Positions 16,192 through 50,100 of a DNA stretch of 64,000 nucleotides are shown one piece after another. The notes under the pieces are model-generated. The model searched no databases and was not told where the DNA came from. It saw only the letters and a program-made list of their open reading frames with translations. Source of the stretch: Enchytraeus crypticus (taxonomy: Eukaryota > Annelida > Clitellata > Enchytraeida > Enchytraeidae); assembly GCA_905160935.1 (NCBI GenBank), contig CAJHZI010000547.1:420501-484500 (forward strand), given 5' to 3'. The position numbers and the translations under genes were made by a program. How positions within the stretch are numbered: position 1 is the stretch's first letter; each line of letters begins with the position of its first letter.

Positions 16192-19100
16192 TTAAATTAA
16201 ATGTAGAAAAACCCTAAATTTAAAGACGGATTGACAGAAAAGCAAATATCGTTATACGACCTTCCTAGTCACACAGTGATGTGTTTAGGAATTGAGGAAT
16301 TCACTGAGTTTACGATTTTCTTATCGTTGAGCAGCTATTTTTATTTAGAATATCATAAAACACAAGATCTGTACCAGACAAATGCTAGGATCGTCTCTCT
16401 GCTGCGCGAGACCATTCAGTAGACTAGAGTCGTTGTTGAGATGAGCGAGTAGAGCCGTGAACAACGTGTCTGAACTGTACACCCAGGTGGCCTGTACAAT
16501 CAACAGACGTGTACAACAAGGTCGTCTGTACAAACAACAGAACTGTACAACAAGATCGCCTGTACAAACAACAGAAGTGTACAACAAGGTCGCCTGTACA
16601 AACAACAGAACTGTACAACGAGGTCGTCTGTACAAACAACAGAACTGTACAACCAGGTCGCCTGTACAAACAACAGAACTGTACAAACATGTCTCCTGTA
16701 CAAACAACAGAACTGTACAACCAGGTTGTCTGTACAAACAACAGAACTTTACAACAAGGTCGCCTGTACAAACAACAGAACTGTACAACCAGGTCGCCTA
16801 ACAACAGAACTGTACAACCAGGTCGCCTGTACAAACAACAGAACTGTATAAACAGGTCGTCTAAACAATCAACAAAATTATATAATCTGGTGATCTACAA
16901 ACAAAATCCAAAACTCATTACTTCTGAAAACTGTTCCACAATGTGAAAAAATGAAGGTTGGTATAATTCAAGAACATTAATGTAACAGCAAAATAAATAT
17001 GAGTCAAATATCTTTAATCTAATAAATTGATGACTGACTAGAGATCATTAAATTCGCACTATAAAAACCAAATAATTAATAATTATAACAATAATTATAA
17101 AAATACAAAATAAGAATTATAATAATAAAAAAAGTAGCAATATTACTAGTACCAGTAGTAATGATAAAATAATAGTGAAATACTACAATTATACTAACAA
17201 TATTAATAAGAAATATAACCAACAATAATAACAATGATTAGTAGTATTTATAGTTTAAATACCTTTATTTTTCAGGACTGATACAAGGGACGTCCTTTAT
17301 AGCTGCTGTTACTACAATCAATTCACCTAAACTGAATTGCAGAACAAGCCTTAAAGATAAAAAAGATGAAGAATTGTTTCAACCAGTCTAATAAATTTAT
17401 TTTAAACTTTGGAAAATATACTCACTGAGGAGTCTCTCTCTTCAGTGCACTGCCAAGTGGCAGGTTCAAGGTACGTATTCATACTCAAAGTCTGCTTTCT
17501 CGCTCCATAAGAGCACTCCTTAGATCAACAAGTTAATCCCTTCACAAAGTCTAAGCCTTATCCAAATCTTGTAGCCTATAGCTTGGGGAAATATGGCTTC
17601 TGAGGTGGTTTCCCGTTGCCTTCTTCAGTTAGCCGGATTAACTACCGTTTAGTCTCGGGGAAAAATATTTCATGGTGAGGTGGGTCCCCTCTTGCCATCC
17701 TCAGCTCCTGCCTTAGTCGCCTCTTACGTACACGCAGCAGATTGTTTGCGGTTGCCCTATTCTGCAGTGGTCCAACCACACCCGAGCACAACACGGAGGA
17801 GTTTCAACAGAGATTTCTGTAGTGGTATAGAGTAATGTATCTAAGAATGGTTCGAACAGACCTGCTCCAGAAAGGCTTTGGCTGAGTCGAGACGCTGAGC
17901 TACAAACTGAGCGAGCACATACTGCCCAGCACACCAGTGATGAAGCTGTTTGAGCAAGTTCTTGTTTCCTGTGCTAAGAGTCATTTCTGATTCAACTATT
18001 AATCAATCAATCAGTCAATCAATCGATCAATAAATAAATGAATCATTCAAGAATTAAATCATTTTAACAGAGAGAGCAATATAAAATCGTAAAACTGCCA
18101 AACAATCACATAGATAACAATATTTTGAAAGAGAGTGTCAAGTCGATTTCCATATGATCTTTTAGATAAAAAATTGACCCAAAATGATACTAGTGTCCTG
18201 AGCTATTTGAGCGTATTGTATAGAAATGCATAACAGAATAAAAATATTTTCATTGGAAATATTCAAAAGTCACATGAGAGTCAATTCAGAGTTAGCAGAG
18301 TCAAAGAAGCATTTTAACAGTGGGAATACAGTAGAAAGCGTCATTTAAAAATGCTGTAAAAGAAACTGAACTGATCGACTGGTCTAGTCCAAAGCATGTT
18401 TGCTGGTTAAGCAAGTCACGACAATCAGCTCCAGCACGATACTGGCCCTGACAGTGTCCTTGTGAGGAAGACACAGACGTTAAAAGCTACGCTATATCTT
18501 TAAACAAACCTCTAGACATGAGATGCATGGACTGAGTTAGAAAGTAAGCAAACCTCTAGACATGAGATGCATGGACTGAGTTAGAACGTAAACAAACCTC
18601 TAGACATGAGATGCATGGACTGAGATAGAACGTAAGCAAACCTCTAGACATGAGATGCATGGACTGAGTTAGAATGTAAGCCTGTAGATCCAGATGTGAC
18701 ACGTCATCAACAATCCGCTCAATGTTCTCACAGTGAGACGTTGCTAACAGCAAACACCAGTTCGACAGTTTGTCTGCAATAGAGTACACCAATCATACAT
18801 TATGCCAGAAATATTACTTACAGCACAGTTTTAACAACATACAATCTAATGAAAATCCGTTTAAATTTTTATTAGAGCAGTATTGTTAGTCCGAGATTTT
18901 AGGACCTTGATCTTGAAGAAGGATTGTCATATATGATCGTATACATGACAGAAGTAGTTATTCACTTCCAGTAAACGTAGAGGTTTAATAATAAAAACTT
19001 TATAACTCGTACTATATTAAATGATGCTAGAAATGCTTAACTTTTGTTTTCTCAGCCGAATTTTCGACCTATGACGCGTTGTAGTATACTAACATTATTA

Positions 19101-22100
19101 ATACATATTAAGGAATTTTAGAAATGACTCGCTTATCTACACTGTGTTTTTTATAACTGATACCCCAAATTGTTTTAACAATAAAGTCGTAAGAAGTTTA
19201 CCGATGTTCTTGAAATTTACAGCAGCAAATTCTACAAAATATACAGAAATTTCGTTTGAGTATCTTTAATAACGTGAATGTCATAGTTTCGCGAATATGA
19301 ATGGGGTCAGATAAGAAATTTCCAATACAGGATTAAGGGCGTGTTACATTTAGCATAGATTATCTCTATAAAAATACTAGCTAAACTTTTTATTCATGCA
19401 TTGCATGGAGAGAATAAACGAAGAAGAGGACGCCGCTGCAGTGGCTGCGGTGATAGCAAGTGTACATAACATAATAACAATTAGAGTGCTACTGTCATCA
19501 ATGACAACATCGAGCACTATTGAGACAAAATCATGCCGGCGAGCAAAAAGAAGGTCCAAAACGGCGCAAATTCGAAAATCCAGATAATCAGTCCATAGTG
19601 AAGGAAATTAAAGAAAAGGAGGTTTAGGTGCAGGTCGCTGCCCATGGACACTGGATGGAAAAGAGAGATGGAAGAGATAGGTCTTCAACTGCCTATGGAA
19701 CTGATCATAGGAAAGCAAAGGCCGATGTGCTTCAAATGAAGATTTCCGAAGATTAGATGGAAGAGAATTCCAGAGCTGCGGTGCAGCATGCTGGAAAGAA
19801 CGATTAGATAGCTTAGAGCGTGAAGGTAAGCTAGGTCTCACAAGAGTAATTAATTTAGAAGACCGATTTAGAAAACAGCAGGCTGCATCACTTTAATCAA
19901 GTGAGACATACAAGTTTGTCCGGGGATGGTGATGGACTTATAGGTCAACGAAGCTGTTTTGTAAATGATTTGCTCTTTAATCTTTAGCCAGTGCAAAGAC
20001 TTTAAAATGAGCGTAACATGTGAGTACTTGGAACTACAAAAAATTGCTCACGCAAGAGAATTCTGAACAAACTGCAATCGATCAATCTCACTGCCAGGGA
20101 GATTTAAAAACAGGGAATTGCAGTAGTCCAATTTCGATTAGATGTCATGATTTCTATGGCAGCACCAATTGTAGCAGCTGTCTCACGTGACAAATATGGA
20201 CGTATTCGACGAAGATCTCAGATATGAAAGAAACATGCTTGTGAAGTTTTAGTTATGTGTTCGTGGAAGGTTAGGTGTTTATCAAGGATAGCACCGAGAT
20301 TTCTCACAGAAGAAACAGGTGTTCTTGTAATATCCGACGAAAACAAAAGAGTTTTCCCATTCAGCTTCAGAAGCTGTTGAGGCGTCCCAAACAACAAGAA
20401 TTCAGTCTTAGATGGATTAAGTGCCAAAAAATTAGCAGACATCCAAGAGGATATAGGAAGTCTGCTAATTTTTTGGCACTTAATCCATCTACGACATGCA
20501 ATGCATGCTTTAAAAGTTTAATAACTTTGTCAATTAAGAACATACTAGCACGTATTTTACGTCATTTTGGAAAGAAGTGATTGCTCTTCAAAATAGCATT
20601 AGCTGAAATTTTGTGACGTATTCGCTATTATTTTTATAGACATAATTTTACGCAGCGTGTGACCCGCCCGTAATCCTATACTGGAAATTTCTTATCTGAC
20701 CCCAGTCCTATTCACAAAACTATAACTTTCACGTTATTAAAGATATTCACACGAAATTTATCTAAGTTTTGTAGAATTGGATGCTGGTCATGTGCTGTCA
20801 ATTTCAAGAACATCGGTCAACTTCTTACAACTTTATTGTTAAAACAGTTTGGGGTTTCAGTTATAAAAAAACACAGCGTATAAATGAAATGTACTTTTGT
20901 CTTCAAGTTAACTTAAAAGCATGTAACACCAATGATATGATAATTTAACTTTTGGGAAAAACACTTGAACTTAATTTGTAGCCTAAATAATTTTATTACC
21001 CATTTCCGCCGTTATCTTTACCTGTCATATTACTGCTAGTAACTGTTAGACTATTTGCTGTATTACTATTTTTATACTATTTGCAGTATTTCTATTTTTA
21101 TTAACTATCAGATCGTGAAATATCATATTGCAATGAAATAAGGGAAGAGATTATACATTCAATGACACTGCTAAGTTTTGAAGTCTGAGGCCACAGACTT
21201 GAGAGGAATTGCATTTCTCTCAAAAAAGACTGTCATAATTAATTCAGAATTCCAATAATTAAAATAAAAATTACAGAATTAAGTTAATGATACTGCAACA
21301 TATACACGTATTTTAGTGCATTTAAAAATACACTAATAAGACTCTAATCATGTAACAAGATTCCTACAGTACTCCGTGAAGAAATAATATTTGAAACTCT
21401 GCCCTATTTTCATTGGAAGAGGAATCAATAGGAATCTGTTTAGTCAGTACCTGGCGCCAAGTAGACAGCTTTCTGAGCAGTTCTAAACGCATCTCTAGCC
21501 GACCGATGTTTACCCGCTAGCAGAGCCCGGCACAAGTACTCGTAGCCTTCCTGTAGCAAAACAAGAAAAACCACATCAAATAAGGCAAATATGCAAGACT
21601 TCTAACTGCCAAAATGCCTTGGAGAAATTAACATTTTATTAAAACATACAGTTTAAGGAGATGCGCGGCTACTAAGTACATAAAACAGGCAAAGCATTTC
21701 TGGCGACGGTGCGATCACAAAATATGAATCCAGGCATTTAAAATTGTCACTGGATTGGTCGATCTACCTATAGAGGAGTTTTTTGCTTTCAAAAATGGGG
21801 TAACAAGAAATAATGGTTCAAGTTTGTACATGAATAAATTTTATTTTAATGCTGAAAGATATCAATTCAAAAACCGATGCATTTCTTGTTGGAATTCTCT
21901 ACCCTCTAATGTTGTAAATGCGCCTTCCCTAAACTCTTTTAAAAGATGTCTGGAGGGTATTAATGTAAGCAAATACCTAAAGAGTTAAAGTGATTGCTTT
22001 ACTTCATTCTTTTATCTTCTTGTCTGCAAATTGTGATATCATGTGCGTATGATAAATAAAATAAATAAATAAATTTGAACTCGGCGCCTACTGATCCACA

Positions 22101-25100
22101 GTCAGATAACTTACCGAATTTGCTACCGTCTCAACACAGAATTTAACAACACAGCCGAAGGAACATTAACGGTGTACAGTTATACGTTATTACATTGACT
22201 TTGATACATATAGCATGGTACGATCAACTGTATCAACGACTTCTAGAAAATCTGAAGTTGAAAAAGTTTAGTTTTCTGTATATTAATACCAGAACTGATA
22301 TAGTAACTTCTGTTCACTGACAGTCTAATTGGGATTTAAACCGATGGCCTCCAGATCATCGTGCAAAAGTGCTATCTACGCGTCTACATACCCGAAGCTA
22401 GTAGAAACTTAATAAACTCAATGTATTTAAAGGCAATTCTAAAAAATTATAAACAGTGGCAGAGACTAAGTTCCAACTGAATATGCGTACAACTAAAATG
22501 TAATGCTTAGATCAAAATCATAATAAAAAAGTTCCATAACGATTAAATAGCTTAGAAGTGATTTGCCTCTATTTTCTTCTAAATTAGCTAAATATTGCAG
22601 ACAGATTGGCTTACGCTGAGATTACAATCGTGATCTCTGAGAGCAACGAGACAGCAGTCTCTGATTGGAGCAGAAAGTTCTGCCGTGTGACGTAATGCAA
22701 ACTGAGAGAAGAGCAGCCAATGGGAGGCAGCGGCGGGGTAGTGATGAATCAGCTTCTGATACTCCGTGATAGCTGTCTTCTTCAGACCCTGTCGTACCAT
22801 TCAAGTTAACAAATATAGATTCAAATATTAATGGATTCAGTTATTTTTATTATCTACCAATTGTATCGTTATTAGAAAAATCAGATAAATTATTTCAAAA
22901 GAGCATAATTGCGTTGCGTCCGGGTTACCCGTGCCGCGCCCGAGTTGTTGAAGAATGGACCAACCGTGGTCTGCGGGTGTCGTAAAAGGCTACAGAGCAC
23001 TAAGATCTAAGCTAATATCAGAAAGGGCATTCAGTTGGTGAGCGCCTAGGCTCCAGAAATTGCTAGAAAATTTTCTAAAACGAATGGATAGTTTAAAGAG
23101 CTGATGCTCTGGCGTAGGACAGAGAGGAGTGAAGAGGATCTATTCATATCCCGACAAAAGTTAAACTGGGATTCAAGGGAAGATGATGACGATATTTTCA
23201 AAAAACAACAAATACAGACTCCTAAATAGATTTTCAGTAAATAAAAATTGATGGAATTCGTTTCATGGTATGATTACAGTGCCGTACAAACGAACACTGT
23301 AGAAGTGACAAAAGTATTAACTTGTAAGGATTTTAGCTACATTAACAAAACTTTCTTTATAAATGATGGATACACAATGAAGGTTTATGGCAAACATGAC
23401 AAATTGACACGTCAACAGTACAACGTTATTTAACCTGAGCGAACTTGACGATTGATTTCAGCAGTACAATGTGCGTAGAGGCACGATGATTCAGTTGATG
23501 TTTTTGCATTTCCTTCATGACGGCTGCGACGAGCTTAACGTCTTTCTGAAGAACTGCTAGACTGAGCAGAGCACAGAGTCCCAGCTCTGGAGGGTTTGCG
23601 CACTTTACACTGAATGAATACATGACTATTAACGATAAGATCTCTTTCGATATCACAGGTTAAAAGCTTTGCAGACAGTTGTAAAGCTGATGTTCCGCTA
23701 AATTTATCTTGGCACATAATTATGGCCTATACTAAGGATTTTATTAAACATAATTAATAATTAATGCAAATCTTATTTGGAATATGTAAGTGCCACTTGT
23801 GGGCCATTATTTCCGTTCATGCGCTCTAACTGTTTATTGTGTACGCCAATTGTGATATGCGTAGGTAAGCGAAATAAATAAATAAGTTCAACACATTATC
23901 TATGCTGTTAATGATTGAGATTTTAAATTTTATTCACTGATCAGCTTAAACAGAAATTGAACCGCGATATTTTAAGATAAGCATAACGTATCACAACAGC
24001 TTTGGGTTGTAGAAGTTATAAGAGAACTCAATATAACTGATTAGCATATGTTATGATAGAGTTCAATTCAACAGAAAAACTGGTTATCGCTAATTTAACA
24101 TTTCATTACGATATCTGCTGCTCTCTTGGAAGCTTTTGGAAATAGAAAAATATATGTTACAGTGAATGTGTCAAATCAGGTAATTTGTAAATTCCCTGAA
24201 AATTTCAGGGGATTTGTAAATTACCTGATTCACTTAGTGAATTTATAAATTCACTAAAAAAGCCAAGCAATTTACAAATTCCCTAAATTTTTCAATGATT
24301 TTTTGATAAATTCCCTGAGTCAATTATTGAATAAAGAAATCTGTTTACGACGCTCGAGAGTCGTACACAAATTCAGCCAGTAGGCGAACACTCAATATTT
24401 TCACAACCAATTATCAGAATAATTGGTTGTGATTGGTCGCGACCAATCAGAATAATTGGTAATGATATGTAATATTATGTATCATGGTGTGCCAAGGCCA
24501 TTTGACGAAATTCTGCATTCTACGTCCGCTGCATACTAAACGTGCCACAAAAGTTAGCAATTGTGGATAGAAGGCGAGGTGATCCTCAATATATAAATTT
24601 AATAGGTGTAATTATAGACAGGGATAGGAATGGAATGTATCGCATATCCGTGCGCGCAAGAGTGTTAAAGGGTAAATACTCTAGAAATCAATTCGATCTT
24701 TGTGCTCATAGGCTTCTGACTGAGAGCGATGTTGGTTAGAAAGAGGAGGTGGCTCTGAGAACAGCAGTCCAAATGAAATCGAACCGTTGTAAATGTTATA
24801 AAGCGAATATAAAATGTAATAGCCGTTGTCATGCTACCCTAACTTGTAACACAAGTGTCAAGCAACCGTTACAAAACCTCTTCTATGTGTTTAAGATCTA
24901 TGTTTAAACGAAACCTCTTCTATTTGTGTTTTTGTTATAAAACTCGTAGATATTCACAATTACAAGTATAAATAATGTTATACAAGTTAAAAACTTGGTT
25001 AGCAAACCATTTTCAAGTGTTAACTGAACGATTCACGAACGCCGTAACAGACTGCTTTATTCATTATTTGCGTCAGGGAATTTGTCAAAAAAGCAATGAA

Positions 25101-28100
25101 AATTTCAGGGAATTTGTAAATTCCCTGGCTTTTTTAGTGAATTAATAAATTCACTGAGTGAATCAGGTAATTTACAAATTACCTGAAATTTTCAGGGAAT
25201 TTACAAATAACCTGATTTGATACATTTACTGTAACATATATGTCACTACCAATATACTATTAAAACTACTATTCCATTATCCATAATATTGTCCTATTAT
25301 GTACGAAACAGAGATAAGAAGAAACAAATTTGAGATACGGAACAAAAATAGAGAAAAAACATTAGAAATGGAGTTGGAATATTTTAGAAATATTACACTC
25401 AATTACGCAATACTGCTGCAATTCGTTTTTACATTCTGCAATACTTTTGTACTTTGCAATATGAAATTTAAAATACCCATTTAAGTGCCAAGTAACTAGG
25501 CTGAATTTCTTCTACCCCAAAATTGCTTAGTTTCATAAATGCAAATATTAAACATATTGATACTATTCTTCTAAATACTTAAAGGAAACAAACAGCAGAA
25601 TTTCACTTTTTAAAAATAGAAAGAAAACACACAGAGAAAATCGAGAGAGAAAATGTACCTAGAAAACAGACAGTTCAAGGCTTCGGTGTTATTGCCCAAC
25701 TTATAGGCAGTTAATCCTAGAGCAACGTGAATTTTCGCTTTAAAATCTTCGTCAATTGTAGCCGCCAGTGCTTTCTGGTATACTACAAAATGAAAAATAT
25801 CGATAGAGATAAATCATTATATCCTTAATAAATTTTTTTCATATTTTATTTTTATAGCTTGAACATGGTGCAATATTAAGCAACTAGGAGTAGATACGTA
25901 CAAGAGCTATCAGAGTTTCAATAAACTTAGAATGTTAAGACATGCACTACACAAAAACGCCAGGCAAACAAACTCAATTTATTTCAAAGCATTGTAATTA
26001 GAATTATTAGAGACGGCGAGAGAAAACATAATGACATTTAACTTCTAGCATAATATTTATATATTAGTTTAATCCAAGCGTAATATCCCGTAATTTACTG
26101 TTTTATGTCGGGCCACGGAAAAATACATCAACAGTAACTTGCAGTAACAGGAAGAGACGACTCAGCAAGAATTAATAAAAATAACGGAAAAATACCTTTG
26201 AAGCCCTTATTCTTTAAGTTATGGGCTACATTAATCATATGTGGATAAGGCATACACTTTAGTGAAGGGATTAACTTGCTGATCGATGGAGTGCGCCGTA
26301 TGGGGCGTGACAGCAGACTTTGAATAGGAATATGTATCTGGGGCCTCCACGGCAGAACTATAGACTGAGATTCCATACATTACACATATACACACACGCA
26401 CACTAAAACACACGCACACACAAATAAACACTGGTGCAATAATTGATATGGAGAATGATGATAGAAGATGATACGAGATTTATAAAGAAATATACAAATT
26501 ATAATTGATGCCTACCTTTAGAGCTGGCATCAAATTGCTCTAACTGATTGAGAGCCAGTGCGTAACAACAAAGAGGATCAGAAGCATTGTCGATGAGAGC
26601 AGGAAGAGAATCATAGATAGCGACTGCCTCACTGTAGCGCCCCGTCTTACTGCAAGCGTATACAAAGACAATAGTATAAAATAAAAGCACTGGGCAAATA
26701 AATATCAATCAATCAATAAGAATTTAACGTCCGGTTCCTCGCCATAAGGCAATGTCAGGGAGATTTAATAGGTCATTATTAAATCTGCCCATGGCAGATT
26801 TAATAATGACCTAGACTTTTAAAAATAATATTAATTAATTTACAAAAGAGATTTTTTCCAATAAATTTTTATTAATATAACTTTTGCAAATGCTTACAAG
26901 AATAAAATTTAAGTTAAGCATTTAAACGGTTGCCAAATCGATCTAAACTAAATTTTAACATTATTGAAAGATATAACAGAGTTGCAGCAGTAATCATAGC
27001 TTTTTAATCATACATACGCAACCCTTGTAACAGAGAGATCATTTTAGATAAAAATATAAAGTTAAAATCTTTTTAGTTACGAAATATCCAATAGTTTTAG
27101 AACAGAACTAAAGAACTAGCTGTAAGGCTTCGCCATAGGAAGAACCATACGCAACTGGCAGGACAATTCAAGCTGACGGCATTCAAAAATCATCGATCAA
27201 TCAATCAATAAATTATTCAATCAATTAACCAGTCAACCACTCAATCAATCAAGAAATATCAATCAGTTTATATATCCATTTGTTCACATTTATAAAAGAG
27301 ACAAAATAGGACAGTCGTCAACGTACACTAGCAGCCGTGCACAGTTCTCGTAGACTGCAAGTTTTAACGAATCATCTTCAGATCTCTTTTTTGTCAACTC
27401 ACAAGCTCTACAAATAGCAATCAAAGATACGAATATTCATAGCAGTAATCATATATGTGAATATTCAAATCAGCAATCACATTATCATCATCTTCCCTTA
27501 AATCCTAGTTTAACTACAGTGGGGATACAAATAGACCTTCTCCAATCCTCTCTGTCTCACACCATATCTATAAACAGTAAATCTCTAATATTTCTTGTCC
27601 TTCTTAATCACCGCATCCCACGTCAGTTGTGGTCTACCTATCTCTAGCTTAACATCCAGCTCTTCCCTCCAAACTCTCTTTATTACATCCTCATCTGCCT
27701 TTTTCACAATATTTCCATACCATCTTAATCTCGACTGAGAATCATTGCAACAATCACAGATCTGAATATTCACAGCAGCAATCTCAGATATGATTTCATA
27801 GCAGCAAATCTCGGAATTTTGTCACGGATATGATTTAGAAGCCGAATCCTCCAAGAATAATGGTATATCATGTCATATGTTTTAAAGATCCACTCGTACG
27901 GGGACACGAATTGGGAAACGGCAGATAGAGATCAGTGGAGACGTTACATACCATGTCAATAGCTAGTGGCATGTCAAACTGCCAGTAGGCAATGCACTAA
28001 GGGAGGTGGATAAATTAATTTAATAATTATCAGAAAAATAAAGCCGAGTAGATACTTGAACAATAATATAACTTTTACATTTTATACACATTATTATTTT

Positions 28101-28391
28101 ACACGTAAATTACACGTAAATATCATTAATGACTTAATTGGTACGATAGTGTTACAATAACCCTTCAATTATGCACCATATATTTTGCACTTATTTTGAA
28201 GGATTATTGCCCTAAATTGATTATTAGCCCTTATAGTTAATCATTGGGTATCTGTTTATATTTCAATTTAGTTTATTCAATGTTTAATCCGTATTATCTG
28301 TTGTTCTTCTCGTTATAATTTATCAGGTCTTGTTCAGTTCTTACTAGAATGTATTTTGGTTAATATAGTTTATATATATATATACTGTATG

Positions 28392-28459
<68 letters not shown>

Positions 28460-30880: not shown

Positions 30881-30925
<45 letters not shown>

Positions 30926-31654
30926 GGGTGAGTAAAAAAAAAAGATCACACCTGCAAAAAGTTTGAATATCTATGGCTATTGTTAATATTTTCCAATAAA
31001 ACTTTTACCAGTTACTAAAGGACTAATTTCTGATGGGGTGGCCAATTTTCATCCATTATGGTACATAGATTGGCCAGGTATGCAAGTTTCAGCAGAGCAA
31101 CCCCCCATATTTACCTAAAAATGGCGTAAAGCACTTCCTGCAGTTCTGTCTTGTTTTTAGGCTTCGGCTGGTGCTTCTGATAGAGATGTAGCATGGTTCC
31201 CTAGACATAATAATCCAAAGGCTTTAGATCGGGAGAGTTTGGCGGTCATTCATTCTTCTTGATGAAATCCGGGTTTCTCTCGCAGATCAATTCCTGTGCA
31301 TGACGATATGCATGAGCCGGAGCACCATTCTGCTGAAAGATGAAACCATTTGGTAGAAGAGCATAGAAATCATCAAACAGCTCCGGAAGCAAATTATCGA
31401 CGTAATACCTTTATATTCTCGTCTATGAAGTGCAATCCGCCCTTACCGTTGTAGCAAACGACATTTTTAGGCAAAAATGGGGGTTGCTCTGCTGAAACTT
31501 GTATAACTGGCCAATCTATATGTTTAAATGGACGAAAATTGGCCACCCCATCAACAATTAGTCCTTTATTAATTGGTAAAAGTTTCATTAGAAAATTTTA
31601 ACAATAGCCTGAGATATTCAAACTCTTTGCAGGTGTAATCTTTTTTTACTCACC

Positions 31655-31698
<44 letters not shown>

Positions 31699-31882
31699 TC
31701 AGTGCACTGCCAAGTGGCAGGTTCAAGGTACATATTCATACTCACAGTCTGCTTTCTCGCTCCATAACAGCGCTCCTTACATCAACAAGTTAATCCCCTT
31801 CACAAAGTCTATGCCTTATCCACACTTTATGTAACCTATAGCTTGGGAAAAATAAGGCTTCTGCCTTATATATATAATATTG

Positions 31883-31941
<59 letters not shown>

Positions 31942-34900: not shown

Positions 34901-37900
34901 AACGATTCAACAATATGTAAATGTGGCAATGACGAGGAAGACATTGAGCATACGACGCAGTCTGGTGAAGCAATTACACGACAAGATCTAAGGGAATTTA
35001 ATGATTCGGCGAATAAAAAGAGTTCAAGATGGCTTATAGCTGTGTATGGACACGATAGGAAGAAGAATAAGCAGAGTTAACAAGAAAGTACAGAAATGCC
35101 ATTAAAATGTAAAATATTATTCATTTCTAAGGGCAAGGTAACACTTGAAATCCACAAATCTTATCATCATTTAAGCCAACAAAAGAGCCAATAATGCTTA
35201 TAGTAAGAAGAGATTTACTTACGTTAGCTTCAACTTCGATTGACTTGATAAAGCAGTGTTGTGCCAGTGCATAGTCCATTACATCTGTTACAAATTGTGC
35301 ACAATAAAACAAGAATATGTAAGCAAAGATTAGGCCAATAAGTTTACAAAGACTGTGTTACAATTAAATGATTGACTTCCACTTGTGAGATTCTCACTCA
35401 AGACTTCTCTAATATGCAGGAAAGTGAAAGCTTAAAGCCCAAATTCGATGTAGGACATTACAGAATAGCACCTTCTTGATAGACTTATATAAATTGACGG
35501 TTTAAAGTAAGTATTTTGCTTTAATAAATTTAAACCATAATACTACTACTACTATATAAAATTTAATATTAACTATTTTGTAACTAAATAAATATAATCC
35601 TCTCTTTCTCTATGTATTTAACTTATATAACTTTTTACAGAAGTAAAAATTGTGTAGTTTCATATTGTCATTTTAACTGCATGTATCAGATTTAATAGTA
35701 TGTACTATTTCCCGTGTTCTGTCCGGGACACTGAAGAATAGATCAGCCATTAACTGCAGTGTCGTAAGAAGAGACTAAGCAAGAATTGAGGAAGGCAATG
35801 GGAAACCATCTCAGAAGCCATATTTTTTCCAAGCTATAGGCTATATAAGGTATGTAAAGAATTGCGTTTTTGTGAAGTGATTAACTTGTTGATCAATGGA
35901 GTGTTTTTAGTTGGGCGTGAAGATAGACTCTGAGTATGAATATGTACATTGGATCTGCCACTTGGCAGAACACTAGAGAGAGAGAGCGAGAGGGAGAGGG
36001 AGAGAGAATGAGAGAGAACAAGATTACAGACAGCCTTTCTCAAAAACAATTCTTTAAATGCTAATAATTAAATACGCAGACAAATGTCAAACCTTTAGAA
36101 GCTGCCACGATCCCTAATGCAGACCAATGGGAGTGATTAGATGGGCTGAGTGAAACAGCTTGTTTAAGAGTCTGCACACTTTTGCTAACAATAACTTTGG
36201 CCATTACACTATCTTCAAGACAACTCTGACGATAGTAGTTGACACCTAGGTCATGCCACAGTGGAGCAAACTCCGGCATTAGCTTTAAGGCCATTCCATA
36301 GCATCTAAAATATCAGAATAGTTTGTTACAGAGCAACTAAATTTATAAGGATTACTTAAATTCATATGCTGGCATTTAAAAATAACTAATGAGTACATAG
36401 GCGTGACGTCATATGTTGACAGGACTGTTAATTTATTTATTTATAATAAATAAATAGATTTTTGATGAAATTTAGCGTCTTGAGGGAATAGTTTTAGATT
36501 TGATTAAGTACATTGGCGTACTATTAACTTAGTTCATAGTTCTACGTTATATTGTTAATCTGTTATAGTTATTTTTTTGAAAAATCAATTTACAGTTTTG
36601 ACCGTTATTTTACCGTTATAGTTTATTCCGTTGCAGTTACTTTATACTGCTTTTACTGTTTAAATTGTTAAAGTTCTAGTGTTTATATTTTGATTGTTAG
36701 TTAATTATTGCGAATTTGTATCATTTTATGTAATTTGTGTATTACTATATTGTAATTTATATTGTACTTTCTGTGTTGTTTACAATTACTGATTAGTCAG
36801 TTTTGTAAGCATGTTTTGATCGAGAATTCTTGTTAATTCTCTTCGAAGCAATATTTCTCTTTGCTCTCTTAACATGGGATCCCTCTCCAACTCAGATCAT
36901 ATCATTGCTTTGCATGATTTAGCTGAGACTCACAAGTTTGACTGTTTTGCTATCAGTGAAACTTGGCTATCCTCTATAACCACTCCATCTGAACTGATGT
37001 CTATTCTTCCTCCCGGTTATGGAGGAAGAATAAACATCATTTGGTTGTGTTTATTGCAAATCGTGACTCTAGGATATCTGGTGCAAAGGGTGGTGGAGTT
37101 GCTCTCCTACTAAGGAAGCCCTTTACCCTTCTTAGCAATGACTGTCATAAATTTTCTTCATTAGAAGCAATTTCTGTCACTGGTTAATTTGGCACGTGTA
37201 CTCTTCAAGTTGTTGCAGTGTATCGACCACCATCTTCCTCTGCCAAACCTTTCTGTGTCTTTTTATCGGAGTTTTCTGCCCTACTCTCCTTCTTTACTAC
37301 TTCTTAATCAGACTTTGTAATTACAGGTGACCTCAATATTCACCTTGATAATCCTCTTGATCCCTTAACTCAGCAGTTTAATACTTTGCTGTCCTCTTGT
37401 AATGCTGTTCAACATGTGAATGTTGCTACTCATATTGACCATCATACACTTGATGTTGTTATTGCACCAAGTCTCTCTGCTATTGATCCTTTAAGTGTTA
37501 ATATTTTATCTCACTCGCCGTCTGACCATTTTCCTGTTGTATTCACTTATATTCATGTTAAGCCAGATACTATTCAAAATTCAGCTACTGTTTCATTTAG
37601 GTGTATTAATAATATTGATCTTGAGCTCTTTTGTTCTGATCTTGAAAACTCGACTTTGATCAAGTCTCCTTCTAATGATCTTGATGAATTAGTAAAACAG
37701 TATAACACTACTCTTTCATCTCTACTTGAAAAGTATGCACCTCTAACTACCAAGAAGCTTAAGAAATCTAACCCTTGGTACACCTCTGTACCAAGGGTTA
37801 GATTTCTAATTTTCAAAGCTAAAGGCTGCATGCTGTAGAGCTGAAAGAAGGTGGCGTCATACCCATTCCGATTTTTGGAAAACTGTTTCTAATTAGCAAC

Positions 37901-40900
37901 ACAAGATTTATTGTACTGCTATTGCTAATGCTAAGAGTAGTACTCCTCTTTGGTCAGTAAGGCTGTGAATGTTAAGAGATTATGGAAAACTGTTAATGAT
38001 GTTTTACATAGATCTATTTCTCCTTCTCTTCCTTCTACTCCTGTTGAGTCACTTCCTGAACAATTTTCCAGTTACTTTAGTGATAAGATAAGCAATCTTA
38101 GAGTATCTATCTCTCCAGCTCCTAACTCTACTCCTCATACTCCAGTAGAGACTCATTCCACGGATGAGCTTTCTAATTTCACTCCAGTTACAATTGAAGA
38201 GATTACTAAATTAGTTTTAGACTCTCCAGTCAAACATAGTGACTTGGACCCTATCCCAACCTCTCTTTTAAAGAAATGTATTCACATACTTGCTCCTGTA
38301 TTAACATTGATTGTTAATCTCTCTCTACAGGCATATTTCCTTGCGCTTTTAAGCATGCAGTTATTGGATAAGGAATCATTAGATAAGGAATCATTGTCGA
38401 ATTACAGGCCTATATCTAATCTGTCATACATATCTAAACTCACTGAAAGAATTGTTCTCCAGAGGCTTTCTACTCATCTCTCTTATAATGATCTATTTAA
38501 TAAGCATCAAGCTGCTTATACTAAGCATCGTTCAACTGAAACAGTGCTTCTATCTGTGTGCAATTCTATTGTTAATGCCATGTGCACACAACGCTTAACT
38601 GGATTATGTATGCTTGATCTTCCGGCCGCTTTTGATACCATTGATCACAATATTCTTCTGAAACGTCTTTCTTCCTGGTTCGGTATTCGTGGAATTGTTC
38701 TTGATTGGTTCTCCTCCAATCTGACGGATCGTTCTTTTAGTGTGAAAGTGATGGAGTACATCTCTTCACCTTCCCACTTAAAGTATGGTGTGCCTCAAGG
38801 CTCCGTTCTTGGTCCTATCCTCTTCAACCCATATGCAACACCCTTGAGCTCACTGATCTCTTCTCATTCTATTAATCATGAACTACATGCTGATGACACT
38901 CAAATGTACACTTGTTTCACCCCTAACTCCTACTCTGATGCTGAAACCCTCCTGCAACAAAGTTTTCAGTCTATATCCTCTTGGATGTCTGTTCATTTTT
39001 TGGCACTTAATCCATCTAAGACTGAATTCTTGTTGGTTGGGACACCTCAACAGCTTTTGAAGCTGAATGGGAAAACTCTTTCGTTATCGTCGGATATTAC
39101 AATAACACCTGTTTCTTCTGTGAGAAATCTCGGTGTTATCCTTGATAAACACCTAACCTTCAACGAACACATAACTAAAACTTCACAAGCATGTTTCTTT
39201 CATATCTGAGATCTTCGTCGAATACGTCCATATTTGTCACGTGAGACAGCTGCTACAATTGGTGCTGCCATAGAAATCATGACATCTAATCGAAATTGGA
39301 CTACTGCAATTCCCTGTTTTTAAATCTCCCTGGCTGTGAGATTGATCGATTGCAGTTTGTTCAGAATTCTCTTGCGCGAGCAATTTTTTGTAGTTTCAAG
39401 TACTCACATGTTACGCTCATTTTAAAGTCTTTGCACTGGCTAAAGATTAAAGAGCGAATCATTTACAAAACAGCTTCGTTGACCTATAAGTCCATCACCA
39501 TCCCTGGACAAACTTGTATGTCTCACTTGGTTAAAGTGATGCAGCCTGCTGTTACTCGGTCTTCTAAATTAATTACTCTTGTGAGACCTAGCTTACCTTC
39601 GCGCTCTAAGCTATCTAATCGTTCGTTCCAGCATGCTGCACCGCAGATCTGGAATTCTCTTCCATCTAATCTTCGAAAATCTTCATTTGAAGCACATCGG
39701 CCTTTGCTTTCCTATGATCAGTTCCATAGGCAGTTGAAGACCTATCTTTTCCATCTCTCTTTTCCATCCAGTGTCCATTAGCAGCGACCTGCACCCAAAC
39801 CTCCTTTTCTTTAATTCCCTTAACTATGGACTGATTATCTGGATTTTGGAATTTGCATCGTTTTGGACCTTCTTTTTGCTCGCCGGCTTGATTTTGTCTC
39901 AATGGTGCTCGATGCTGTCATTGATGACAGTAGCACTCTAATTGTTGTTGTTATTACCGTAGCAGCCAAAATACCATGGACAGAATAGTACGTTTAAAAA
40001 GTAACAAATATGACCATAACATTACATTCGCTAAACGATGCAATCACAATAAAAGTTTAAATACTAAATCTATTGATAATTTAGTAGGTTAGGCTACATA
40101 CGAAAATAATTCAATGTTTGCTTGAATTGTATTTAAAAGTATAAAAATAATAAAAATTAATATTTAACGTTTATGGCCTTGTCTAAAGATTACATCAGGG
40201 AAAATAGAACCCAGTGATACAAGGCAGTCAATGCATTAGTCTTTCAGTAGAGGATGTAAACCTTGAGCCTAGAGAGAGAACTTCTTTCTTATTCAACGTG
40301 ATCACTGAATCAGATGACGGGGCAGAATCAGCATCAGACTTCTGACTCAATAACTGATAGGGAACTTGAATTCTAGAACATTCCAAAACAATCTACCTTT
40401 AGCGCTTCAAAAAGTAAAACATAAAAGTACACCCGCATTAAAGTGAATGATCAACTACATTGATATCTATCACTTTTTGTTACCAGATGTTTAAGAAGTT
40501 TGCCGTTAGGCAATTTAGACCATTTTCCGTATAACCAGTCCAAAAAATGTCCGAGATTTTACTCTCAGATCAGCGCGGCTGGAATTCGAACCCAACCAGA
40601 TAATCGTGTTAAGTGAAACAGAGTACAACAAACGTTTTCATAGTTGAATACACGAGTAGCACTGCAGCATTTCTGTTACAGAAACTACTCCAACTCACTA
40701 CTCTTTTTAAAGCAGACATGAGCTAAGTGCACTCAGGTTATAACAAAAAACAATAATAAAGGTTAAAATTTATAATTTATCTTCGTCTAAGGATGAAGTC
40801 GGAGGTTTACACTGAATAGTGTAAAGCTAGAAGAGAATAATAATATTTGATCATAATATATAATTGAAACATACTTATATATTAACAATAACATAATCAT

Positions 40901-41088
40901 TACATTATTATTATTATGCTATGGTAAAGATAATAATAATAACATTATTATAACAGCATAATGTATAATATTTATTTAAGGTTATATAACCATAAAGAAA
41001 CAGACATAAAAAGAGTGCATTAAAACTACATATTTTGCAAAATAGTATTTCAATTTACGAACACACAGTCGTGTTAAATATTAAACAT

Positions 41089-41133
<45 letters not shown>

Positions 41134-44100
41134 CAATTAATCAACAATAATTATAATCATTTAATTAATCAATTTTTTTACCTTTCTTAGGTAAAAAGAG
41201 GCACAAACACACTTTAGCAAGAAAATAAACAAATGAAGAAGCTGAAGGTTGCTATAAATGGGTCTAAGCTCTGTGAGATAATAGCACCAATCGTAAACCA
41301 CACGTGTCATAAGAGGTGACTGAGCGACAAAAACTGAGGAAGGCAACCAGAAACCCCCTCAGACGCTATATTATTCCCAAGCTATATAGGCTAATGAGGC
41401 AATTTTTTTGTGAAGGGATTAATTCATTACTAACTGGAATGCTCTTAATTAGGCATGATAGCAGCATGTGGGTATGAAAATGTACTTTGAATCTGCCGCT
41501 TGGCAAAACACTAGACAGCGATACAAGAAGTAATCAACAGGAAGATCTCAAACAAGAATAGCTCACTTCAACAAGTCAGCAGACAATGGATGTAATATCG
41601 TACACGCATCACCCAGTAGCTTCCAAACGCAGACTAAATCCGGTCTTCTTCTCGCAGCCCTACCACACACAACATAACTGAAAATATTATGCTAGGCAAG
41701 TTACTGTAAAATCTTGCATTTATCTTAAGTGAAAAGATTCACTTACACTGAGTATTTGATGATTTGATAATTAATTCATTTGTTGCTATGAAGAGAATGA
41801 CAGAGGATTGAAATATGTGGAAGACTTAATGTCATGGACTTGCCACTGGGCAGTTCACTAAGAGAGAAAGAAAGATTTATTTACAGAATATAAATATTTT
41901 GTAAATAAATGAACTGAAACATTCAAAATGATATGCCGTATCATAGTACGGCATATCACAATTCCACTAAGATATAAAGATCTCTGATAATTATTTACAG
42001 TCAGTTTTTATTTATCAACCATACTGTACTAAATTTATAATCCGACATGATTACATCACTTCCATCAAGTCCACTAAAATACAGTCGCAATCAATCATCA
42101 TAAAGGTTAATCTAACTGAAACTTTTAATTCTTTAACTATTTCACTTTAGAAACATCAATAACACCATGACTACGTTTAGCTCTTCAATAACATTGATCC
42201 TGCAATTCCACACAATCATAGCAATTTCTACTCTGGACTTAACAGCACGCTTTAATAGATACATCTATTTGCTATCTTGAACATGTATATAGAAACAGTA
42301 CCTAGTGAGGAGGTCAATGGCAGTTTCACAGCCTTCCTGAGCCAATGCATGCAGTGACCGCGACACTTGTGATCTGGCTAAATGAATCAAAGTCTCCGCA
42401 CAACCTGTTGATAAAAATAAATATCCATTCAATGATTCGAATGACAGGTTGAGAAAACTAAATTTTCTACTTTACAATTGAATCCTTGAAGACATATGGT
42501 CAATTCTGCAAGGTGTTCTCAACACAAAAGGTATTATTTTCTTCTCAATGGCAACTCTACTGACCGAAAACCATATTATTTGAGAGGCAGGATTGATGAT
42601 AGGAATACAAGGATTTAATTGTAATGCAGAATATTTATTTTAGAGCACGCAATTCATCATTCAGAGCCTTCAGTAGTTTTTAAATTTAATTTTTCATAAA
42701 TGGGCTTTTAAAAAGGTAGGGTTCCTAGAAGACTCTCAACTTTTCCACACTCTAAAGAGGCAGCATAGAAGAAAAACCCTAAGCTGTGAACCAAAAATAA
42801 AACAATATGATGCAGAATTTTGATATTCAACAAATTTTTATAGCAAACGAATGTGACGGCACTATTGTTAATAAAGAAAATGCTGGTACAAATATTTCAA
42901 CAACATCCATAAAGTTACTAAAGGTACATTATAAATTACAAAGAATAGAGTACAAGACCTTTCAACGCAGGCACATAATCCTCCTCTATTTGTAGTATTG
43001 CATTGAATTGTCCGATAGCTTCAGTGTAAAGAGTTAACTTCAACTTTATAACAGCCAATCTAAACAAGGGAATGTTTCGATCGTTTAAAAATCACATACA
43101 CATTTCTTCATAAATATCTTCCATCTGCAGTTAATGCGTCTTTCTATAATCACAAGGAAAACGGTGTTTGTAACAACAACAACAACAACAATACGATTAG
43201 AGTGCTACTGTTGTCCATGACAACATTGAGCACTGTGATATCAAATCAAAGCCGATGAGCAGAGTGAGGGGTCCATAAACGGTGCAAGCCAAAATACGGG
43301 TGGTCAGTCCAAGGAAAGGTACTAGCGGAATGGAGGTTTACGTGTTGGTCTCAGTTCGTGGACGTTTGGTGGATATGAAAAGTCGAAGAGAAAAGATTTC
43401 AATCGCCTATGAAACTGTTCGTGGAGTAGGAAAGGCTGATCAGGAACAGATGATTGGTGCGCAGAATGGAAGGAAGATAATTCCATATCTGCGGGGCAGC
43501 ATGCTGGAAGGAGCGCCTAGACAGCTTGCTACGTGAAGGAAGGCTTGGTCTCTAAAGAGTAACTAACTTAGAGGACCTGGTGGGCCTGGAGGTAGGTTGT
43601 CCCACTTGTAGTAAGTGGGACATGTAACTATTACCAGGAGTGGTAATAGACTTATAAGTTAGAGAAACTGTCTTGTAGAAAATGCGTTCTCTAACTTTGA
43701 GCCAGTGTAAGGACTTGAGGATTGGAGTAACATGAGAATATTTGGAGCTACGAAAGACTGCACGTGCAAGGGAATTCTGTATGAACTGCAACCTATCAAT
43801 CTCGCAACTGGGAAGATTTAGAAATAGGGAGTTACAGTAATCCAGTTTCGATTGCACGAGAGCAGCGCCAATTGTAGTGGCAGTCTCGAGAGAAAGAAAT
43901 GGTCTTATTCGACGAAGATCGCGAATATGAAAGAAACATGCCTGTGACGTTTTAGTGATATGTTCGTGGAATGAGAGGTGGCGGTCAAGGATAACACCAA
44001 GATTCGTCACAGAAGAAACCGGTGTTACTGAAACATCAGAAGAGAGAGCCAGGGACACCTCGTTCAGTTTTGAAAGTTGCTGAAATTGGCAGACATCCAG

Positions 44101-47100
44101 GAAGATATCTCCTGAAAGGATTGCTGTAGACAAGCCTTAGCATCAGGATAGGAGTGGGGGGTGAAGCATGTGTACAGCTGAGTGTCATCAGCGAAAAGTT
44201 GATGGTCTAATGAATGTGAAGAGATCAAGGAGCTTAGTGGAGTAGTGCATAAATTAAAGAGGATAGGACCAAGTACAGAGCCCTGAGGCACACCGTACTT
44301 GAGGATGGAAGGTGGAGAGGAATACTCTTGAACTTTGACGCTAAGAGTACGGTCGGTGAGATATGAAGCAAACCAAGTAAGTGCATTGCCGTGGATACCA
44401 AACCATGAGGAAAGATGTTGTAGGAGGATTTGGTGATCAATGGTGTCGAAAGCAGCAGACAGATCGAGAGTACAAAGTCCAAACTCACAGAGAGACTAGT
44501 CTTTCAAAGACTCTCCACCTATCTTAAGTCCAAAGACCTCTTCAACAATCACCAATCTGCAATCACCATATGACACGTTGAGTGCACATGGCGTTAGTAA
44601 TGGTGTTACAGACAGAAAGAAGAACAGTTTCAGTAGAGCGATGTTGGGTGTAAGCAGATTGGTGATTGTTGAAGAGGTCGTTGGACTTAAGATAGGTGGA
44701 GAGTCTTTGAAAGACTAGTCTCTCTGTGAGTTTGGAAATGAATGGTAAATTGGATATGGGCCTGTAGTTGGAGAGTGATTCCTTGTCCAGTGAGGGTTTC
44801 TTTAGGAGTGGAGTGACAATAGCATTTTAAATGACTGTGGAAAGTGCCAGAGGACAAGGATATATGTAATGTAATTTATTTACCCAGTGGAAAGGCAACT
44901 ACATAGAAAGCTACACAGATCTGAGTGAAATTATAATTATTTCAGAGACGTGAATGACTGGTTAGAGATCGTAATTTAAGAAAATAATGACAATAGCATT
45001 CATCATAGCCACAGGTCAAATGTATATTTTCTTACTCAGTTAGTTGTCACGCTATATAAAGAGCAGTCCATCCATCAACCAGTTAAACCCTTCACCAAAG
45101 CCTTATCCACATTTTAATGTAGCTTATAACTTCGGAAATAATTGCTTTCTGGGGTGGTTTCTCTTTGCGTCATCAATTCTAGCTTAGTCACGAACAGATA
45201 CGGTTACGGATACGGTTGGTCTATTCTTCAGTGATGCGCACACAACATAGAAGTTCAGAGGTTTAATAGTAATGCTTTTATGTCGTTTCTTGATTCAATT
45301 ATAATGAATAAAATGAATCAATATTTGGTAAATTATATTCGAAGTAATCTATAAATTTTGTCTTTAGAAAACTTATTTTAAAAATCAATATATTAAATTA
45401 TAAATACTATCTACTATAATAGCGTAGTCAGTGACTTCCAAATCAAAGATTGCATTAGAGAGAAAGAGAACTATGTTTATTGAAGTACACATACAAGTAT
45501 ACATACAATCACAAGGTCATCAAAGAGGGTATATATACCCTATCTAGTTGACAGGCAGCAAACACGCAAGATACAGCCAAACATACATGTACAATTTAAA
45601 ATTAGCAAAATTTACTAGCGAACAGCAGTACCAACTAACCGGCGTGCAAGTTTGAAAAACTGTTGTACAACAATTGACGGCATAATAATAGAACCACAAT
45701 TAATGAAGCAAGCAACCTAAGTAAAGTCAGTAATAGCACGATAATTGTCAACAATGAGATATATTTATCATTACAAAATACTAAGTAAATAGCTTTTGTA
45801 TCTCTTGTTGAATAAGTTCAAAGATTTAATAGGCCTACTACGAATTTCTAAGGGAACATTATTCCAAATCATCACACAATTAAAAATATAAGATTTGAAG
45901 ATAAGCTTGCTAGTATTAGAAAATATATAATTAGTGTTTGACAGTCTAGTATTGTAATAACGATTTTGATGTAGAGAATTAATGATGTCACGAATTGCCG
46001 TAGACATAATACCGTCAAAACTAATGCACTTATAAATTAATTTACTTATAGAAAGTATATAGAGTTGAGATACAGGTAAAGTATTGAAATTAGCATATAA
46101 TTCTTTGACGTTACAAAACCTGGATTATTTTGTAGAGTTCGTAAAATTCTATTACAGAATGTTGAATGTTCGTATTACTGACGTATTACTTCATATGTTG
46201 TAATAATTTCTTGAGTTTTATGATGCTCAATCCGCACGTTCAAGACAGCCAGGTCTAGAATCCAACCTTAAAACCACATTCAAAGATTTATAATTCATTC
46301 TTGTACAGGCCGGAGCCAGGGGCGGAGTCGGTAAGGTACTCGACCGCGGATCAGTAGGTGCGGGTTCAAATTCTGGGCTCGCCCGTGTCTGACATCGCTT
46401 TCGAGTGAAGAAACTGACGTTATCCTTAGCTTTTTTGCTTTTTACTAAAGAGATAATCTCAAATATAGATTCTTACGTACAATATTTGAAGAAATGAATA
46501 GAACAAAGAGTATACTGAGACAGGTTACTAACTGATATAAGCTGTGCACGGCAGTGGGGTCCAGTTCTATGGCTCTGCTGAAGGCCTTGACCGCAGCGTT
46601 GTAACTTCCTCTGTTCATGTACGCCTCCCCCAAACATTCCCAGCATCGACTACAACAGATTAATATTCATTTCAACGTCTGCATAGTCTGATAATCATTA
46701 ATTAATCACTTAATTATCTAATTAGTCTGATCATTTACTAAGTATTTAATTCCATTTAGTACGGTCTTGCCATAAAACAATCTAACCACACCTTATAATG
46801 AAACTATTACCAATGATGATAAGTATTAAGTATCACTTTAATCCTATATGTCAAAATAGATATCAGTTTTATTCTAGATTTACGATAAAATTATAATAAA
46901 ACTATTCCAATTTTAATACGATGACTACCTAATTTTTGAAGCAATAAAACGGCTACCTATCTCTAGAATCAATAACACGACTACCTATCTTTAGAATCAA
47001 TAAACGACTACCTATCTCTAGAATCAATAAAACGACTACCTATCTTTAGAATCAATAACACGACTACCTATCTTTAGAATCAATAACACGACTACCTATC

Positions 47101-50100
47101 TTTAGAATCAATAAGACAACCACCTATTTTAGAATCAATAACACGATTACCTATCTTTAGAATCAATAAAACGACTACCTATCTTTAAAATTAATAAAAC
47201 GACTACCTATCTTTAGAATCAATAAGACAACCACCTATTTTAGAATCAATAAAACGACTACCTATCTTTAGGATCAATAACACGACTACCTATCTTTAGA
47301 ATCAATAAGACAACTACCTATCTTTAGAATCAATAAAACGACTACCTATCTTTAGAATCAATAACACGACTACCTATCTTTAGAATCAATAAACGACTAC
47401 CTATCTTTAGAATCAATAAGACAACTACCTATCTTTAGAATCAATAACACGACTACCTATCTTTAGAATCAATAAACGACTACCTATCTTTAGAATCAAT
47501 AAGACAACTACCTATCTTTAGAATCAATAAAACGACTACCTATCTTTAGAATCAATAACACGACTGCCTATCTTTAGAATCAATAAGACAACTACCTATC
47601 TTTAGAATCAATATGACTACTACCTATCTTTAGAATCAATAAGACAACTACCTATCTCTAGAATCAATAAGACAACTACCTATCTCTAGAATCAATCAGA
47701 CGACTACCTATCTTTAGAATCCTGTCTCAGGGCAGACTGTAGAGCGGCTATTGCAGAATTAGCGTCGCCATGCTTCAGGTGAGTCAGCCCAAGTCGTAGC
47801 CACGCCCACTTACCTCTACAACCAACAGCATTGCATGCAGTTTAACTTCCAATATCAGAAGCTGCAGTGTTTAGTATCAGACGTTATCGCTCAATAGCTA
47901 GTACTCCGTCGTTGCCAGAATCTCTCAATATCCAATTCATGATCTCTTTCTTAGTGCACAGCCTACCGGCAGGTCCATGGTACATTACGCCTCCATTCTT
48001 CTCTGTCTTCCGCCTTCCTCTTCATTTCCACATATAAGTGGGTCTTTAAATCATCTAACATACCTAATCTCGGCCTGCCCCTGCCTCTTTTTCCTTCCAT
48101 TCTACCTTCTATGACCTCTTTTAATAGACCTTCCCCCCCTTAGAATGTGTCCTATCCATCTCTTCTTCCTATTTCTTAATACATTTGTCAACTGTCTAAC
48201 TGTGCCAACTCTCTCCAGGACTTCCTCATTTGTAACCTATTGAGTCCAGCTAATCTACTCCACTCTTCTCCAAATCCACATTTCCAATGCCTCCAGTTTC
48301 CTAATATCTTCCTTCCTTAAGGTCCATGTTTCACATCCATACAATTCATGATACGAAACACTTATAGCAAAACAACCTCAAACTTCCTATCAAAGAAATT
48401 ATAAACATGTTGACTCATCTTAACAACAACACAGTAGCATTGACACAGTCAAGGTTAGAATTTTAACCAGGCCAATCACTAAAAAATTTCACAGATATAA
48501 ATTCAAACTAAATCTCGTCATTTAATTTTTTTTTGGAAGAATTCTAGACATATGCATTGACAAGCTCTGATACACTTATCTGCATGGATCTCCAAAAAAT
48601 ATTTACCCTGAAACTCCACACCGCTTTGTAATAGATTCAAGATATGACAATGCCTTGTCCTAAAAATATAAAAACATAAAAAGTTTTAGCATGACTAAGA
48701 AAATTTTAAGAGAACAGTAGAAAATTTATGATTATAATTTAATAATAATTTTTATAATGGAAAACAGAACAGTCAACATAAGCCAAACAAATTATATTTG
48801 TAAAACGTTCAAAATAAATACACAAAATAATTTGGAAAAAAATTTAAATAAAGTAATACCCTATATTCAGCTACGGTTGATCAAATCTCAACTATACATA
48901 AAATTCACAGTATCATTGGCTCGATTATTTTAAGCCAAACAAAAAGCTTCACTAAAACTATTTCACGCACATGTGTTGGTATCAATTTGAGAAAAATGAG
49001 ACAAATTCATTACAAGTAGTAAAACATTCATGAATCTATGTTTTACTGCCTAATTGAAAACAGTATTTAGCAAAATGTCAGATTTCAAACTCTATTCTAG
49101 TCGAATTGGAAATAGATTTAGAAATGCAATATTGAAAACACTAAATACAGGTATCTACATAACGTGATATTCTATCTCTACCGTGAATCATAATCCAAAA
49201 GACAGCAACATATAGGCCTACTTAACTATGCCAAAAATTTCTACTTAAATGTAATTTAAATTGCTATACTGTAAAATTAATACATACATTATCAATTTAA
49301 ATGGCTATACTGTATCATTAATAAATGGGTCAAGTTTCATAGCGTTCAATTGTTCATAATGGCAATGATATTAATGAATGTAGCGATAGACCATAGAAAT
49401 CATCATTTAATGATCAAAATTTAAATCTGACAGGTTTTTGTAAAAATATATGCAAGAACCAGATTTGAAAAAAACTTTGAAATCCAGTAAAACCGAAAAC
49501 TTAATCCAGTGCATCCCAGAATTTGATAATGCATATTGAATAAAGTGTACAAATTTTGACATGAGGAGCAAATAACCTCGAACTTAAGAGTAAGGAGACA
49601 ATCTATCAGATGAGAGCCCGCCTCCTCAGAGTCAGAGTTCAAACCAAACGCTTTCTCATAACATCTTCTCGCCTTTCTGCAGGAAAACCAAACATTTCAA
49701 AATGCTAATATTAAGCAGTAGGATTGCACAAGCAAAAGCGGCCTTTGGTAGTAGAAAAGAACTATTAACAAAAAGTCTAAAGAAAGACACAAAGATAAAG
49801 ACAGTGAAAACTTTGGTTTGGACCACGCTATTGTATGGATGTGAAACATGGACCTTAAGGAAGGAAGATATTAGGAAACTGGAGGCATTGGAAATATGGA
49901 TTTGGAGAAAAATGGAGAGGATTAGCTGGACTCAAAAGGTTACAAATGAGTAAGTCATGGAGAGAGTTGGCACAGATAGACAGTTGATAAATGTATTAAG
50001 AAATAGCAAGAAGAGATGGATAGGACACATTGTAAGGGGGAAGGTCTATTAAAAGAGGTCATAGAAGGTAGAATGGAAGGATAAAGAGGTAGGGGCAGGC

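Follow-up and report, generated by a model that had tools for sequence, protein, structure and literature searches.

Mirages, which are tandem duplications of intron/exon borders, have been described in the lancelet genes Adh3 and the globins BflGb6 and BflGb9 (PMC3087553), and also in PGBD5 and troponin C (PMC3902484). In the accessible text of these papers, the origin of mirages is termed unclear and the cases come from a few lancelet genes (PMC3087553). Arrays of this kind were analysed here in a window of 64,000 nucleotides from the annelid Enchytraeus crypticus (assembly GCA_905160935.1, contig CAJHZI010000547.1, positions 420,501 to 484,500 of the forward strand), in which three minisatellites lie on exon borders of the gene SKIC3, and in dynein, myosin and CCT chaperonin genes of the same genome. 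Tandem arrays in the sampled genes crossed splice borders well above chance and, on their structure, the E. crypticus arrays are probably mirages of the lancelet type, by which the kind would be extended to a second phylum.

As in the lancelet mirages, so far as the accessible parts of those papers describe them, the tandem units span exon/intron borders at both donors and acceptors with the array on the intron side, and AG/GT is retained in many, though not in every one, of the copies. The unit length, given there as 10-160 bp, is 17-160 bp in the 27 border-crossing arrays counted here. Unlike the lancelet cases, the present arrays belong to an annelid genome in which 280 borders were counted and an enrichment is shown; they are known from the DNA of one assembly. 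The first-pass annotation of the window knew of no described system of this kind, a statement that has to be withdrawn in view of the lancelet mirages, which have the same structure in the text available (PMC3087553, PMC3902484).

In the open-access literature, outside which most subscription papers lie, repeats at splice borders were found in the lancelet papers and as single cases (potato RNA-dependent RNA polymerase, RdRp, and the human 6-16 minisatellite); no genome-wide count and no border-enrichment test for such arrays was found there. The unit of the human 6-16 (IFI6) minisatellite carries a splice donor, and extra donors were reported to be used. A donor inside the unit is what it has in common with the arrays described here, and it concerns a single human locus. 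In potato RdRp, a case of intron gain by the Rogers model, the duplication also crosses an intron-exon border but, according to the part of the paper available, makes a new intron (PMC4974935); by contrast, existing introns here seem to lengthen. The earthworm metallothionein genes are annelid genes with intronic minisatellites, in which copies of exon 4 are absent from the transcript and one exon copy is inverted; border-spanning is not described in the accessible text (PMC12783039). Border arrays are likewise not mentioned in the accessible part of the E. crypticus genome paper (PMC8460440).

SKIC3 and its three border arrays

A 919-residue concatenation of the exons was compared with the human SKIC3 chain 9g8o_B, which its pieces match in a mainly collinear manner. 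A model built under strict splice cut-offs had come to 11 exons and was superseded. The exon count by model is 30 to 50 depending on the penalty and 46 in another model, some exons being surely false, and the exon numbers 17, 36 and 38 assigned in the first-pass annotation were not confirmed. The same annotation had placed three unrelated minisatellites on exon borders of this gene, and this was borne out by Tandem Repeats Finder (TRF), with units of 28, 44 and 34 bp each holding a splice site. The features, in window coordinates, are as follows.

46923..47721, minus strand: 28-bp minisatellite, 28.7 copies (TRF), crossing the donor of the preceding SKIC3 exon
47708..47815, minus strand: SKIC3 exon ending in the first 28-bp unit (human SKIC3 homology across the junction, gene model)
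46533..46649, minus strand: next SKIC3 exon after the 28-bp array (homology, gene model)
18501..18681, minus strand: 44-bp minisatellite, 4.1 copies (TRF), crossing a donor
18642..18773, minus strand: predicted exon ending in the 44-bp array (frame, splice consensus; weak SKIC3 match only)
18459..18641, minus strand: predicted 183-base intron, of which 141 bases are the 44-bp array (TRF, gene model)
17862..17968, minus strand: predicted exon upstream of the 34-bp array, ending in phase 0 (frame, gene model)
16472..16874, minus strand: 34-bp minisatellite, 12.0 copies (TRF), crossing an acceptor
16375..16491, minus strand: predicted exon after the 34-bp array (phase, splice scores; no homology match; alternative in-frame acceptor 16593)

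All three arrays, whose units are unrelated in sequence, extend from the exon border into the intron. At the 28-bp array the donor lies at 47708/47707 (GATTCTAAAGATAG/GTAGTC, the slash marking the border) and each unit carries 14 exon and 14 intron bases. At the 44-bp array it lies at 18642/18641 (CATGTCTAGAG/GTTTGC), with 40 exon and 4 intron bases per unit. When the exons flanking the 28-bp array were joined, they matched human SKIC3 (9g8o_B 565-640, E 1.3e-32) with no gap at the junction. Judged from the alignments, only the donor of the 28-bp array is fixed by homology among the three borders. For the 44-bp and 34-bp arrays the borders are predictions from reading frame, phase and consensus splice signals; the exon at the former falls in a weak SKIC3 match (12.3 bits), and no SKIC3 match was obtained for the exons flanking the latter.

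The 34-bp array does cross an acceptor as first proposed, at a position that had to be corrected. The preceding exon ends GAGCAG/gtctg in phase 0, and the phase of the most exon-proximal copy, gtgtacag/TTCAGAC (16475/16474), does not fit it. The acceptor at 16492, 17 bases upstream of 16475, is in phase and has the better splice score (2.4 versus -0.3). The likeliest acceptor is thus 16492/16491 (gattgtacag/GCCACCTGG), with 14 intron and 20 exon bases per unit, which would place 20 exon bases inside the array. Gene models favour the in-frame acceptor at 16593, which lies another three units upstream. The array (16472-16874) is stop-free in several frames on both strands, with open reading frames (ORFs) of 82-161 aa, so that use of an upstream acceptor could add in-frame residues.

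Searches with the core patterns of the arrays covered the whole assembly, 524.19 Mb in 802 contigs. The 28-bp core gave 13 exact matches and, with up to 2 mismatches, the 34-bp core gave 9 and the 44-bp core 4, all of them inside the own array, and each array was therefore born at its own locus. Introners, which need similar copies across many introns, were rejected on the same result for the SKIC3 arrays, the ones searched.

Placement of arrays and border copies in other genes

Exons outside SKIC3 were found by Pfam profiles, with 83 matches for myosin heads, 100 for dynein AAA_6 and 64 for CCT chaperonins. The sample comprised 47 segments of 206.7 kb in all (dynein and myosin 142.7 kb, CCT 63.9 kb). 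Myosin loci were taken from the best 30 of the 83 matches and gave 25 segments once merged; dynein was represented by 12 of the 19 contigs with matches, and CCT by 9 of 13 contigs, five of them taken almost complete and the other four in pieces of 3 kb. The CCT contigs excluded were C373, C259 and C400, which hold long intronless open frames, and C314, which has one weak match. Contigs C259 and C400 (L066, L067) share identical chaperonin matches, E-values and spacing, with an 894-residue open frame, and look like duplicated or redundant contigs. Duplicate hits of the hidden Markov model (HMM) profiles in C775, C199 and C336 were known before the dynein and myosin sequence was inspected, and C336 was kept in. 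The CCT genes served as a fresh sample, their sequence being unseen beforehand and the settings unchanged.

Splice borders were called beside the profile matches. Four duplicate pseudo-exons were dropped, as were borders with a poor splice score, borders more than 30 bases off the match end and those at domain ends. Retained were 198 borders in the dynein/myosin set and 82 in CCT, of which 266 entered the 36-mer test after removal of low-complexity borders. Some borders are surely misplaced, for example at C775 156-228 and C410 237-297.

The sampled introns are rich in arrays, 194 being present in the 206.7 kb. For the placement test each array was treated as one birth of a period-length unit falling at random outside exons or over a border, and an array was scored as crossing when at least 5 bases lay on each side of a known border. 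In the dynein and myosin genes 17 of 134 arrays cross a border, where 6.0 are expected (P 5e-5), and in the CCT genes 10 of 60, where 2.5 are expected (P 1e-4). With placement within segments, the pooled count is 27/194 against 8.84 expected (P 4.5e-8). The enrichment at splice borders, whose absence would have refuted the proposal of the first-pass annotation, is thus present in the genes sampled outside SKIC3. A border-crossing array occurs in 19 of the 46 segments with non-microsatellite arrays (7.1 expected). On removal of the richest gene, C795, 22/153 non-microsatellite arrays cross (7.7 expected), and without C775 and C199 the dynein/myosin set retains 13/120 (4.75 expected, P 6e-4). 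Microsatellite-like arrays of the dynein/myosin set show no border excess (0/28, 0.5 expected).

Among the 27 crossing arrays 19 are at acceptors and 8 at donors. At a dynein acceptor in C294, TTTGTTGTTTTGTAG/GTCCACTATGAC is repeated about five times, and TTTTGCATACAG/GACATACC is repeated six times in C199. In C775 a 160-bp unit spanning CTGCTACAG/GTAATCT is present in about three copies, and the acceptor arrays of the CCT genes include 86 bp x 7.2, 83 bp x 4.8 and 46 bp x 3.9. Some arrays scored as non-crossing hold exon-edge sequence, such as AGCAGCTCTC..AAACAG/GTTC in C294; the figure of 27 is thus probably an undercount. A sequence resembling a myosin exon end with its donor, GGGCTCATCTATGTAAGT, is repeated in a pair of adjacent arrays at positions 643-1365 of L032 (21 bp x 17.9 and 26 bp x 11.2); no exon was called there and the pair is excluded from the counts.

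Copies of the border sequence itself were also counted. The 36 bases around the border recur within 1 kb on the own intron side at 31/266 borders, about one in nine of those sampled. Among the same 266 borders no wrong-side and no reverse-complement copies were seen, and 0.1 would be expected from other loci. Of 2871 random intron points scanned on one side, 144 have a copy, which gives a border excess at P 6e-5, the points not being independent. In SKIC3 such copies occur at 3/73 screened borders, and SKIC3 alone is not exceptional in this respect.

Origin and persistence of border arrays

It is likely that the border arrays are mirages in the sense of minisatellites that arose by local tandem duplication of a short border-spanning segment. 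The units span borders, those of SKIC3 are unique to their locus, and the copies lie on the intron side, never across the exon. A duplication over one donor would leave the first donor intact, and one over an acceptor the last acceptor. If splicing keeps the exon-adjacent copy, the mRNA would be unchanged, and the event would be nearly neutral and could drift, while exon-internal duplications would be purged by selection. Later growth of the arrays, through slippage or unequal exchange, would extend the intron at that end. Age, side and intron length were looked at after the main placement test. Of 93 introns measured, the 17 that carry a border array exceed the other 76 in length (median 921 against 610 bp, P 0.009), which fits the intron lengthening suggested in the first-pass annotation.

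Neutrality explains the tolerance of border arrays, not their excess over intronic arrays. Border births are about 3 times what intron density predicts, and about 7 times in the youngest arrays. Among these (at least 93% match) 12/40 cross a border, where 1.8 are expected, and among old arrays (below 88% match) 12/90, where 5.05 are expected. The larger excess in young arrays speaks less for better survival than for duplication that favours borders or exon DNA. A wider reading, offered tentatively and as a possibility, is that duplication is still active throughout this annelid genome and hits borders at several times the rate of intron DNA, with acceptors affected more than donors; introns would then be extended at their ends as exon edges are copied, and the process, with its counterpart in lancelets, may recur unnoticed across animals. 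Border copies at this frequency in another phylum offer a countable system for how introns lengthen, in which one can ask whether DNA duplication is guided by transcription or by splicing, and pose the question of how a splice site present in as many as about 28 copies is passed over by the spliceosome.

Several points weigh against mirages as the explanation and against a border bias. Copies are present at 23/134 acceptors and 8/132 donors (P 0.007), an acceptor excess that plain neutrality does not predict. When 24-mers were scored for a copy to the left or right, borders (24/198) did not differ from intron points (1697/14052); with complex points only, the counts are 20/177 for borders and 617/10062 for intron points. 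Overall coverage of borders is not above that of introns, and it is births, complex points and the one-sided scan that show the excess. Further, the borders were set from homology and a splice matrix, not by RNA, and the genome is a single one sampled in conserved genes only.

The alternative that fares best, though we think it rather doubtful, is that exon DNA is generally prone to tandem duplication and that border arrays are the survivors after purging inside exons. Only two arrays lie within 29.3 kb of exon, as purging would give, and the position of the excess in young arrays agrees with it. The acceptor excess is not predicted by a side-blind process of this sort unless donors are filtered harder.

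Longer survival, in which selection holds the exon copy so that anchored arrays remain recognisable for longer, starts from the established coding constraint on the exonic part of one copy. It predicts a trend opposite to that seen with array age, though homogenisation could blur age, and is improbable. It is very unlikely that redundant splice sites are kept by selection as a safeguard. Splice dinucleotides are indeed kept in most copies, SKIC3 included (GT 39/41, AG 55/64), but the donor counts are dominated by SKIC3, whose 28-bp array supplies 21 of the 39 GT-keeping copies, and the mismatch rate of the acceptor AG (0.12) equals that of the exon side (0.12) and is not far below that of the remaining intron side (0.17).

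The first-pass annotation had also raised intron gain. By the Rogers model the arrays would mark introns newly made by AG/GT tandem duplication, as the large share of its intron taken up by the 44-bp array might suggest; the dynein intron at HMM position 25 carries a border array in C775 and none in C360, and we regard this origin, left without support, as extremely unlikely. Chance overlap or assembly artefact is almost certainly not the cause, array-rich as the introns are, since both the placement and the copy tests show a border excess and the copies in most arrays differ by several percent, unlike those of a stuttering assembly.

Other observations on the window and assembly

Simple repeats of the TTGATTGA type often stand directly before acceptors (L038, L039, L043, L068), in place of the expected pyrimidine tract. 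Simple repeats were present at 11/23 acceptors with border copies versus 27/111 without (P 0.04), and at 0/8 donors with copies versus 15/124 without; both comparisons are post hoc and weak.

Long ORFs at 36820-39781, 43552-44826 and 60392-62367 of the window resemble, by eye, pieces of the reverse transcriptase and endonuclease of long interspersed nuclear elements (LINEs).

The mitochondrial DNA contig, C802, carries nd3, nd2, cox1, cox2, atp8 and cox3 in a row and uses the invertebrate code; all but cox1 were recognised by eye. Its gene order is presumably that of the earthworm Lumbricus and speaks against a lancelet genome. A search for the lancelet GFP family gave no hit either, although its controls were silent as well. 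The genome paper, in the part available, reports 525.19 Mb, 35.41% GC and a mitochondrial gene order like that of Lumbricus (PMC8460440); the sampled gene segments have 36.6% GC. Partial COX1 matches with stops, resembling nuclear copies of mitochondrial DNA, were seen in C361, C424, C796, C373, C166 and C435.

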